Shown here: one piece after another, positions 16,243 to 19,667 of the stretch
Numbering within the stretch: position 1 is the first letter of the stretch
How the letters are laid out: each line of letters starts with the position of its first letter
NCBI RefSeq assembly: GCF_002286985.1
Contig: NZ_NSKC01000003.1
Span: 310,001 to 374,000, forward strand
Origin: Halorubrum salipaludis
GTDB lineage: Archaea > Halobacteriota > Halobacteria > Halobacteriales > Haloferacaceae
Length of the DNA stretch: 64,000 nt
Direction of reading: 5' to 3'
Notes under the pieces: generated by a model
Database searches by the model: none
The model's input: only the letters and a program-made list of their open reading frames with translations
What the model was told of the DNA's origin: nothing
Program-made: the position numbers and the translations under genes

Positions 16243-17464
16243 ATGACAGACATCACGGAGGCTTCGTCGGACACCCCGGCGGATCGAGTTCTTCCAGGGC
16301 ACGATAGCTTCTAACGTCGAAATCGGTCCTGTCAGGATCTTCGACACGACCCTGCGAGACGGAGAACAGTCACCACGTACTTCGTTCAGCTACGACGAGA
16401 AACGCCGCATAGCGGCGACGCTGGACGACATGAACACCCACGTCATCGAGGCTGGGTTCCCGGTGAACTCGGACGCGGAGTTCGAGGCCGTAAGCGACAT
16501 CGCCGCCGCGACGGACACCACCGTCTGCGGGCTGGCGCGGGTCGTCGAGGGCGACATCGACGCCGCGATCGACTCCGGCGTCGAGATGGTCCACGTGTTC
16601 GTCTCCACCAGCGACGTACAGCTGGAGGACTCGATGCACGCGACCCGGCAGGAGGCGAAACAGCGCGCCGTCGACGCCGTCGAGCAGGTGAAAGACGCCG
16701 GCGTCGAGTGCATGTTCTCGCCGATGGACGCGACGCGGACCGACCCCGACTACCTGCGGGAGATCGTCGAGGCGGTCAGCGACGCGGGCACCGACTGGAT
16801 CAACATCCCGGACACGTGCGGCGTGGCGATGCCGACCAGCTTCGGGAAGACGGTGAAGGCGGTCGTCGAGGCGACGGACGCCCGGGTCGACGTGCACACC
16901 CACGACGACTTCGGGATGGCCGCGGCGAACGCGGTCACCGGGTTCGAGAACGGGGCGGAGCAGGCGCAGGTGTCGGTCAACGGGATCGGCGAGCGCGCCG
17001 GCAACGCCGCCTATGAGGAGGTCGTGATGGCGGTCGAATCGGTGTACGGCGTCGACACCGGCATCGACACGACCCAGATCACCAAGCTGGCCCGGATCGT
17101 CGAGGAGGCCTCGGACATCCCCGTGCCGGCGAACAAGCCCGTCACCGGGCGGAACGCGTTCGCCCACGAGTCGGGCATCCACGCGGCGGGCGTCATCGAG
17201 AACGCCGACACGTTCGAGACCGGCGTGATGACCCCCGAGATGGTCGGCGCCGAACGCGAGTTCGTCTTGGGCAAACACACCGGTACCCACAGCGTGCGCA
17301 AGCACCTGGTGGAGGCCGGCTTCGACCCGAGCGACAGCGAGGTCCGGCGCATCACCAAGCGCGTCAAGGAGTACGGCTCCGGCAAGCGCCAGGTGACCGC
17401 CGGCGACGTCGAGCGGTTCGCCGAGGAGGCGGACGTCGACCGCGAGGAGGAGGTCCGGGTCTGA
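16243..17464 (+). pseudogene. (R)-citramalate / 2-isopropylmalate synthase with an N-terminal frameshift
   Basis: First enzyme of the isoleucine (citramalate) or leucine branch, HMGL-like family without the LeuA regulatory domain. The ATG at 16243 starts a plausible N-terminus (MTDITEASSDTPADR) but runs to a stop at 16312-16314. The rest of the enzyme (EFFQGT, then FDTTLRDGEQSP with catalytic Arg and metal Asp, then HVIEAGFP, HTHDDFGMA, NGIGERAGNA, FAHESGIHAAG) lies one frame over from about 16286 to 17464. That second frame has no ATG, GTG or TTG before 16430, which falls after the catalytic motif. The join can be explained by loss of 5 bases at 16280-16290 (one GATCG or CGAGT unit); restoring them gives about 408 aa, the normal length. 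Alternatives: a sequencing error, recoding, or a truly inactive allele with another synthase elsewhere. Confidence 0.8.
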
Positions 17465-17495
17465 TGGCCGCCTCCCTGCGCGGGGAGCCCGCCGA

Positions 17496-17514
17496 GCGAC
17501 CGCCGTGCGGTCGC
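17496..17514. terminator. Hairpin after the synthase gene
   Basis: GCGACCGC and GCGGTCGC pair around CGT, 32 bases after the stop at 17464. It is a strong short hairpin without a following T-run, so a terminator role is only possible. Confidence 0.3.
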
Positions 17515-17604: not shown

Positions 17605-17610
17605 TTTATA
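17605..17610 (+). promoter_or_regulatory. TATA box for the ilvB leader transcript
   Basis: TTTATA at 17605-17610, followed by CCCC, lies 26-31 bases before the ATG of the leader ORF at 17636. It would start transcription at or just before that ATG. The eight bases TATACCCC (17607-17614) recur in inverted form as GGGGTATA at 17702-17709, which suggests a shared regulator site as well. Confidence 0.55.
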
Positions 17611-17635: not shown

Positions 17636-17710
17636 ATGCGACGGCACGCCGCGATCCCGACGACAGCCGAGGTCGCCGGAGCCGTCGCGCCGATCATTGT
17701 AGGGGTATAA
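17636..17710 (+). CDS. Candidate leader peptide of the ilvB operon (24 aa)
   Basis: A 24-codon ORF whose ATG follows a TATA box at leaderless distance and also a GGAGG at 17627-17631, four bases before the ATG. Seven of 24 residues are Ile or Val, clustered at the end as PIIVGV just before the TAA at 17708-17710. The final codons use ATT and GTA (twice), which are scarce in this GC-rich genome. The last four codons run into an inverted repeat (17698-17719) upstream of ilvB, which starts 139 bases later. The layout resembles a bacterial attenuation leader for branched-chain amino acids. It may still be coincidence: Ala and Val are common in random GC-rich frames. Confidence 0.45.
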   Translation: MRRHAAIPTTAEVAGAVAPIIVGV

Positions 17711-17719
17711 CCCCCTACA
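17698..17719. promoter_or_regulatory. Inverted repeat around a TATA-like core upstream of ilvB
   Basis: TGTAGGGG (17698-17705) and CCCCTACA (17712-17719) are perfect 8-base arms around TATAAC. As DNA it could be a repressor site over a second TATA box; as RNA it is a GC-rich hairpin overlapping the end of the leader ORF. The region to 17849 contains no other convincing feature. Confidence 0.6.
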
Positions 17720-17849
17720 CCATCCCTTCCTCACCGACGCGACGCATCGACGAACGCCGACGGGCGAGTCCGCTCTCGTCCGGCGACTCGGCGTTCGGAC
17801 CGACCGACTCTCACACCCGCGAGATGCACCACCGAACACCACCACGACA

Positions 17850-19667
17850 ATGAGCGACACAGCAGCACAGCCACGAGACGACGAGGCGGAGGACCCGGAC
17901 GACGCGGCGAACTCGGACGGGTCGGCCGCGACAGACGCCGGCGACCCGACCGACGCCGACGGTCCCGCGGTGTCGACCGGCGCCGAGTCGGTCGTCGCCG
18001 CGCTGGAGGCCGCGGGCGCGGAGACCGCCTTCGGCGTGCAGGGCGGCGCGATCATGCCCGTCTACGACGCGCTGTACGACTCCTCGATCCGGCACGTGAC
18101 GATGGCCCACGAGCAGGGCGCGGCCCACGCCGCCGACGCCTACGGCGTCGTCTCGGGCGAGCCCGGGCTCTGCATGGCCACGTCGGGGCCGGGAGCGACC
18201 AACCTCGTCACCGGCATCGCCGACGCCGACATGGACTCCGACGCGATGCTGGCGCTGACAGGACAGGTCCCGACCGAGTTCGTCGGCAACGACGCGTTCC
18301 AGGAGACGGATACGGTCGGTGTCACCCGCCCGATCACGAAGCACAACTACTTCGCGCACGGCGCGGACACCGTCGGCGACACCGTCGGCGAGGCGTTCGA
18401 ACTGTCGCGCGCGGGGCGTCCCGGGCCGACGCTCGTCGACCTGCCGAAGGACGTGACACAGGACGAGACGGACGAGACGCCGGGGCCGGCGACGCCGCCG
18501 GCGGGGACCGACCCCGACCCGAACGCCGACCCGGACGCGGTCGAGGAGGCCGCCCGCGCGATCGAGGCCGCCGAACGACCGGTGTGCCTGTTCGGCGGCG
18601 GCGTGATCAAGGGGGACGCGAGCGACGCCGCGCGCACCTTCGCGCGGACGTACGGGATCCCGGTGACGACGACGATGCCGGGAATCGGCTCCTTCCCCGA
18701 GGACGACGACCTCTGTCTCTCGTGGGCGGGGATGCACGGCACCGGCTACGCCAACATGGCGATCACCCACACCGACTGCCTGATCGCGGTCGGCACCCGG
18801 TTCGACGACCGGCTGACGGGGGGGATCGACACGTTCGCGCCGGAGGCCGAGGTCGTCCACATCGACATCGACCCGGCCGAGATCTCGAAGAACGTCCACG
18901 CGGACTACCCCCTGATCGGCGACGCCGGGCGCGTCCTCGACCAGCTGACCGCCGCGGTCCGCGAGGCGCCCGACGCCGAGGCGTGGCGCGAGCGCTGCGC
19001 TGAGTGGAAGGAGACGTACCCCCTCACGTACGCGACCCCCGAGGACGAGCCGCTGAAGCCGCAGTTCGTCGTCGAGGCGTTCGACGAGGCGACGGACGAC
19101 GACACCATCGTCACCACGGGAGTCGGCCAACACCAGATGTGGGCCTCCCAGTTCTGGACGTACACGGAGCCCCGGACGTGGATCTCCTCGCACGGCCTGG
19201 GGACCATGGGCTACGGCGTGCCGGCCGCGGTCGGCGCGCGCGTCGCGGCCGACGCGATGGGCGAGCCCGACCGCGACGTGGTGTGTTTCGACGGCGACGG
19301 CTCCTTCCTGATGACCATGCAGGAGCTGTCGGTGGCGGTCCGCGAGGACCTCGATCTCACCATCGCCGTGTTGAACAACGAGTACATCGGCATGGTGCGC
19401 CAGTGGCAGGACGCCTTCTACGAGGGGCGTCACATGGCCTCCGACTACACGTGGATGCCCGAGTTCGACAAGCTCGCCGAGGCGTTCGGAGCACTTGGCC
19501 TCCGCGTCGACGACTACGACGAGGTCGCGCCCGCGGTTGAGGAGGCCCTCGAGTACGACGGCCCCGCCGTGATCGACTTCCACGTCGATCCCGAGGAGAA
19601 CGTCCTGCCGATGGTGCCGAGCGGCGGCGCGAACGGGAAGTTCGCCACCGCGGAGGACCAGCTATGA
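17850..19667 (+). CDS. ilvB: Acetolactate synthase large subunit
   Basis: Thiamine-diphosphate enzyme that condenses pyruvate with pyruvate or 2-oxobutyrate in valine, leucine and isoleucine synthesis; 605 aa. The first 45 residues are an acidic haloarchaeal lead. The catalytic glutamate region reads HVTMAHEQGAAHAADAYG (about residues 73-90). The FAD/central domain follows, then the ThDP motif GDGSFLMTMQELSV ending in NNEYIGMVRQWQ near residues 472-515. The stop overlaps ilvN by 4 bases. Confidence 0.96.
   Translation: MSDTAAQPRDDEAEDPDDAANSDGSAATDAGDPTDADGPAVSTGAESVVAALEAAGAETAFGVQGGAIMPVYDALYDSSIRHVTMAHEQGAAHAADAYGVVSGEPGLCMATSGPGATNLVTGIADADMDSDAMLALTGQVPTEFVGNDAFQETDTVGVTRPITKHNYFAHGADTVGDTVGEAFELSRAGRPGPTLVDLPKDVTQDETDETPGPATPPAGTDPDPNADPDAVEEAARAIEAAERPVCLFGGGVIKGDASDAARTFARTYGIPVTTTMPGIGSFPEDDDLCLSWAGMHGTGYANMAITHTDCLIAVGTRFDDRLTGGIDTFAPEAEVVHIDIDPAEISKNVHADYPLIGDAGRVLDQLTAAVREAPDAEAWRERCAEWKETYPLTYATPEDEPLKPQFVVEAFDEATDDDTIVTTGVGQHQMWASQFWTYTEPRTWISSHGLGTMGYGVPAAVGARVAADAMGEPDRDVVCFDGDGSFLMTMQELSVAVREDLDLTIAVLNNEYIGMVRQWQDAFYEGRHMASDYTWMPEFDKLAEAFGALGLRVDDYDEVAPAVEEALEYDGPAVIDFHVDPEENVLPMVPSGGANGKFATAEDQL

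Follow-up and report, generated by a model that had tools for sequence, protein, structure and literature searches.

Attenuation by translation of a leader is textbook bacterial regulation. In E. coli, for example, the Phe-rich leader pheM lies 5′ of the Phe-tRNA synthetase genes pheST. The T-box leaders of Gram-positive bacteria control ilv genes and aminoacyl-tRNA synthetases by way of tRNA charging; they bind uncharged tRNA directly and require no translation of the leader. Bacterial attenuators (ilvGMEDA, ilvBN, leuABCD, trp, and pheA, as well as ilvBNC of C. glutamicum; PMC11857589) combine a short leader ORF carrying codons for the end product with RNA hairpins that overlap this ORF or lie behind it, 5′ of the matching biosynthetic gene. 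The haloarchaeal element described here, found 5′ of ilvB, is built likewise. Unlike its bacterial counterparts, however, it has a leaderless ORF, a stem that begins at the start codon, and a stop codon placed within a hairpin loop, with few control codons, no visible antiterminator, and usually no U-run. An initial annotation of the locus proposed a ribosome-mediated attenuator and knew of no established archaeal example; we found none in the open-access literature either, an absence that is no proof. Comparison among relatives strongly supports the proposal. On sequence grounds, we consider it very probable that ilvB-ilvN-ilvC is under cis-acting leader-peptide control (ribosome-mediated attenuation), sensing charged tRNA-Ile and tRNA-Val.

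Anatomy of the ilvB Leader

The window, the whole stretch of DNA that was analysed, comprises 64,000 nucleotides. Its ilvB product has its best matches, 94–98% identical, within its own genus, and the named loci with the same protein belong to Halorubrum. The features of the region are as follows.

17605–17610, forward strand: TATA box (TTTATA) of a predicted leaderless promoter, 31 nt 5′ of the ORF1 ATG.
17636–17710, forward strand: leader ORF1, 24 codons (MRRHAAIPTTAEVAGAVAPIIVGV, then stop); frame, stop, and terminal Ile-Val-Gly are conserved, codons 4–14 drift.
17638–17645, forward strand: 5′ arm of stem A, GCGACGGC, from the third base of the ORF1 start codon (RNAalifold, 15 Halorubrum leaders; pairing of own versus permuted arms).
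17681–17688, forward strand: 3′ arm of stem A, GCCGTCGC, just 5′ of the Ile codons (RNAalifold; arm-permutation test).
17693–17701, forward strand: proposed sensing codons Ile20 (ATC)-Ile21 (ATT)-Val22 (GTA); Ile21 is found in 98 of 99 ilvB leaders with free wobble.
17698–17705, forward strand: 5′ arm of hairpin B, TGTAGGGG, overlapping the Val22-Gly23 codons (inverted repeat; fold z-scores).
17708–17710, forward strand: ORF1 stop codon TAA, within the 6-nt loop of hairpin B; TAA, TAG, and TGA interchange in relatives.
17712–17719, forward strand: 3′ arm of hairpin B, CCCCTACA (inverted repeat; compensatory changes in relatives).
17720–17739, forward strand: G-depleted, pyrimidine-rich tract behind hairpin B, the putative site of premature termination (base composition, 99 leaders).
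17751–17797, forward strand: stem C, CGAACGCC / GGCGTTCG, a large leader hairpin of close relatives in Halorubrum (RNAalifold, 15 sequences, little covariation).
17850–19667, forward strand: ilvB, acetolactate synthase large subunit (TIGR00118, 695 bits), the proposed regulated gene, followed by ilvN and ilvC.

The positions first assigned to the TATA box (17605), ORF1, the inverted repeat, and ilvB, which starts 139 nt after the ORF1 stop, proved exact on recheck, and the stop does lie inside the repeat, its TAA falling in the loop of TGTAGGGG/CCCCTACA. This repeat occurs once in the window (0.08 expected by chance), and hairpin B folds at −13.5 kcal/mol (z −3.3), with none of 200 shuffles equally good. 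In their target genes, ilv and synthetases, haloarchaeal leaders resemble T-box leaders; yet the window holds no T-box match. An Rfam search gave no gathering-level match in the window and nothing relevant around the element at E values up to 5, and identity with the T-box riboswitch or another Rfam family was rejected.

Two further features flank the element. A second short frame, ORF2 (MHHRTPPRQ, 17824–17853), ends as ATGA over the ilvB start; such overlaps also occur in several Halorubrum, Haloarcula, and Halobellus loci and are absent from other Halorubrum species (e.g. L026, L028). Just 3′ of the leuA stop, a G+C-rich inverted repeat, CTCCCTGCGCGGGGAG (17465–17500), is perhaps a leuA terminator.

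Conservation across Halobacteria

Loss of the leader ORF among close relatives had been named beforehand as a refuting observation; instead, the ORF is kept across families f1–f4 and f6–f10 of the Halobacteria. Upstream sequence is available for 78 of the 80 named ilvB loci from haloarchaea, and each of these has a short ORF that ends in (I)-V-G-(V/A..) and whose stop lies within or next to a hairpin. A covariance model built on the ORF1 end and hairpin B matched 315 of 341 Halobacteria genomes, representing 72 of 81 genera; in the window's own genome the ilvB leader is the single match. When 20 further loci from families f2–f4 and f6–f10 were read, the element stood 5′ of ilvB in every one. 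Among 20 model-negative genomes examined, 16 hold a diverged version, one a leuA-type leader instead, two deep-branching ones none, and one ends at a contig boundary. In the deep-branching families f5 and f11, leuA and ilvB are direct neighbors and no leader separates them. The leuA-type leader before ilvB is that of L176 (genome G161): it ends in PADRVLPRAA, its TGA lying in the loop of GAGCCG-CCTGA-CGGCTC.

Ile/Val codons, hairpin, frame, and stop are kept, while the remainder of the peptide drifts freely and its length is anything between 16 and 56 codons. Loci also differ widely in how far the hairpin stands from ilvB. In a few f4 genomes (L166–L170) the stop lies just 3′ of the hairpin rather than in its loop, which counts against the proposed arrangement.

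Start, Frame, and RNA Structure

The promoter spacing first noticed at this locus extends to the whole set: in 99 leaders the best AT-rich 7-mer begins 28–38 nt 5′ of the start codon, with a mode of 32. An ATG some 32 nt after an AT-rich box implies a leaderless transcript. With start codons chosen by promoter spacing alone, 96 of 99 leaders (37/37 in Halorubrum, 59/62 in others) have their best ATG in the frame of the Ile/Val codons, p about 8e-25 against an expectation of 1/3 (binomial; shared ancestry ignored). Among 34 distinct, equally long Halorubrum leaders, all positions of codons 4–14 drift, Ile21 is ATC in 20 and ATT in 14, Val24 alternates between GTA, GTC, and GTT, and the stop is TAA in 19 and TGA in 15. 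Val22-Gly23, on the other hand, is always GTA-GGG, its wobble bases being frozen because they form the 5′ arm of hairpin B. Over the 99 ilvB leaders, the Ile before GTA is present in 98 (ATT 60, ATC 38). The scarcity of ATT and GTA codons, to which the initial annotation had drawn attention, thus has no apparent functional meaning: the Ile wobble is free, and GTA-GGG is held as a hairpin arm. On these features, ORF1 is a translatable leader ORF of the kind that ribosome-mediated attenuators carry. Nonetheless, at the sensing position most members offer just one or two codons each for Ile and Val, whereas many bacterial leaders have more, and this counts against the reading.

Hairpin B has a mean z of −3.07 over the 99 leaders. 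Its arms covary, as GGGCC/GGCCC in L078 and L173 and as a U-A pair in L048, and in L174 and L175 an entirely different stem, CGGGCC/GGCCC, takes the place of the hairpin. In stem A, the first ORF1 codons pair with the stretch just 5′ of the Ile codons (RNAalifold, 15 Halorubrum leaders); across genera, own arms pair at −22.1 kcal/mol versus −19.1 for permuted arms (sd 0.42, 0/2000), an effect not seen in a control region. Both structures are mutually compatible in the RNAalifold fold, with no 2:3 pairing. Pairing of the stem A 3′ arm with sequence 3′ of hairpin B, sought by eye, was not conserved, and no alternative antiterminator pairing was found, which counts against attenuation. By its geometry, hairpin B would depend on ribosome position, as expected of a ribosome-mediated attenuator. 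Behind its 3′ arm, G content is 3% at +0 to +9 and 9% at +10 to +19, with T at 21–33% (99 leaders). A T-run of at least 4 within 40 nt of hairpin B occurs in only 21 of 99 leaders, so that most show no recognizable terminator of the standard archaeal kind; L164 and L165 have TTTTT 8 nt behind the hairpin.

Proposed Control Codons and Target Genes

The strongest and, in our reading of the sequences, decisive evidence for Ile/Val sensing is that the codons follow the enzyme. Fourteen genomes with a second covariance-model match were taken (L348–L361), and all 14 matches lie shortly 5′ of valS, at 92–152 nt, except for one at 27 nt whose longest frame starts earlier; the identity of two of these valS genes was checked by NCBIfam. 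A 15th valS leader came from L257. These leaders end in VFVGAS, VVVGAF, VRVGAS, VFVGPA, or PVVGAH, with the hairpin as in ilvB leaders and with Val codons but no Ile, the Ile21 position holding Val, Phe, or Arg. Ile is thus absent from 15/15 valS leaders versus present in 98/99 ilvB leaders (Fisher p 8e-18, ancestry ignored). A diverged ilvB leader, L177, which ends in GIIGIIGIIGAPQ, has six Ile codons, and its hairpin differs.

The leader ORFs of pheS in Halorubrum and two other families end in Phe runs such as FGFFFA, FGFVFG, and FGFFFN (L210, from contig C22 of the window's own genome, L207, L208, L211–L214, L216, and L217), and the RNA structure behind them is unlike the ilvB hairpin. They share with pheM a Phe-rich leader but differ from it in sequence and structure, and an independent origin is likely. 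A list of uORF-bearing 5′ UTRs of H. volcanii includes pheS, with a uORF of 26 residues in its mapped 5′ UTR; ilvB is missing from it, a point against the present reading, although the list spans UTRs of 150–250 nt only (PMC4983044). Read as control codons of ribosome-mediated attenuators, the leader ends match their genes: Ile and Val for ilvB, Val only for valS, Phe for pheS, and six Ile in L177.

Halorubrum valS lacks a hairpin leader of this type, and upstream of trpS/tyrS and ileS/leuS there were just a few chance ORFs and no amino-acid-matched leader. Within the window's own genome, of which about 1.69 Mb was covered, 39 promoter-spaced short ORFs have their stop in a hairpin; among these candidates no convincing amino-acid run was found except that of ilvB. 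A trpC leader was also considered and rejected, the only structure there being a palindrome at the promoter: in Halorubrum (L195–L205) a conserved palindrome-like GTGCATTAGTGTACACTAATG, probably an operator, lies at the trpC start.

Model and Alternatives

With Ile/Val codons at its end and a stop in the hairpin, ORF1 is where the ribosome probably senses Ile and Val. From this anatomy we infer that ORF1 is translated and its ribosome can stall, in which direction expression responds, and that the output is termination, in the following manner. Transcription would start at or beside the ORF1 ATG, and a ribosome would load on the leaderless mRNA and translate behind RNA polymerase. When Ile and Val are plentiful, it would reach the stop in the hairpin B loop and leave; hairpin B would then form beside the G-poor, C/U-rich tract, and most transcripts would stop short of ilvB. 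Under a shortage of Ile- or Val-tRNA, the ribosome would halt at Ile20-Ile21-Val22, covering the 5′ arm of hairpin B, which then could not form, and RNA polymerase would proceed into ilvB. As a guess, stem A within ORF1 may delay the polymerase or restrict the loading of additional ribosomes, so that each transcript registers a single ribosome. Against the scheme, a ribosome at the ORF1 stop would likewise cover hairpin B until its release.

Given the rest of this scheme, we hold termination to be the somewhat more probable output. In H. volcanii in vivo, termination reached 59% of transcripts at an RNA hairpin and 95% at a T-stretch (PMC7237163), so termination at hairpin B is possible. The U-run missing from most members leaves hairpin-plus-factor termination, mRNA decay, and re-initiation via ORF2 as candidate outputs. 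It is accordingly conceivable, if rather unlikely, that the leader ribosome senses as proposed while hairpin B acts on mRNA stability or, through re-initiation, on ilvB translation; the ATGA overlap of ORF2 in the window and in loci of three genera fits re-initiation, yet ORF2 is missing in L026 and L028, and the highly variable hairpin-ilvB distance and the T5 runs of L164 and L165 speak against any output other than termination.

That the IVG(A/V) end itself arrests the ribosome as a nascent peptide, perhaps tuned by a metabolite, would explain why this end is nearly invariant (98/99), but the frozen GTA-GGG wobble places much of that conservation at the RNA level. Moreover, the ends vary among leaders (VFVG, VVVG, or VRVG in valS, GIIG in L177, IRVR in L174, Phe runs in pheS), so that the codons go with the enzyme rather than with a single arrest motif; we regard arrest as improbable. 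Still less credible is a transcription-factor operator to which ORF1 would be incidental. The repeat is a perfect 8+8 palindrome with arms near-invariant in many genomes, and the promoter of haloarchaeal trpC bears a palindrome that looks genuine; the ilvB repeat, however, lies about 90 nt 3′ of the TATA box, and its palindrome is not conserved independently of translation, the arms being swapped with compensation (L078, L173, L174, L175) while frame and codons stay, the in-frame stop is nearly always kept in the loop, and Ile, Val, or Phe codons track the enzyme. Equally implausible is that ORF1, albeit a complete leaderless gene, encodes a small functional protein with the hairpin as its own terminator and ilvB read from another promoter, for the peptide body drifts, its length is 16–56 codons, no AT-rich promoter is apparent by eye in 17720–17850, and synteny with ilvB is fixed.

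Related Leaders and Implications

The neighboring leuA presents a different problem, one already known for Haloferax leuA2 (HVO_1510), whose gene neighborhood is common to the window (PMC8305020). The accessible part of that report advances a frameshift idea for leuA and describes no hairpin in an ilvB leader. At the 5′ end of the window's leuA (16244–16330) there is no in-frame ATG, GTG, or TTG before the catalytic N-terminus, and on the promoter side the sole ATG (16244) begins a frame that overlaps, MTDITEASSDTPADRVLPGHDSF. Most of the 80 loci show almost no variation in CCGGCGG[AG]TCGAGTTCTTCCAGGGCAC, a stretch that is read in both frames, which hints at a programmed +1 shift close to a CTT Leu codon.

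In ilvB upstream regions from other classes, no leader was found in 19 of 20, and the single match led to family f17 of the same phylum. There, Ile/Leu/Val-rich peptides lie directly 5′ of ilvB in 21/21 genomes (L310, L314–L333), some followed by a hairpin and T-run, e.g. AAAGGCGTTCTGCCTTTTTT in L318. That f17 are methanogens was rejected, mcrA being absent in six of its genomes. Since sequence and layout are unlike the haloarchaeal element, this is apparently an independent use of the principle.

Overall, we think it reasonably probable that haloarchaea possess a small regulon of ribosome-sensing leaders (Ile/Val for ilvB, Val for valS, Phe for pheS, and perhaps leuA via +1 frameshifting that depends on Leu). 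In this regulon, early termination would be governed by a leaderless ORF whose stop lies in a hairpin loop, with no U-run of the bacterial type, and f17 would have its own branched-chain-rich ilvB leaders. The element would work like a bacterial leader-peptide attenuator, as a variant in a domain for which we found no established example. With a conserved set of enzyme-matched leaders in genetically tractable, Haloferax-like organisms, two questions become testable: whether archaeal transcription-translation coupling is tight enough for a ribosome to steer a eukaryotic-type RNA polymerase, and whether conditional termination in archaea is brought about by hairpins or by the termination factor FttA/aCPSF1. 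If this picture is true, archaea too would have attenuation by translation of a leader as an established strategy, acting on a eukaryote-like RNA polymerase.
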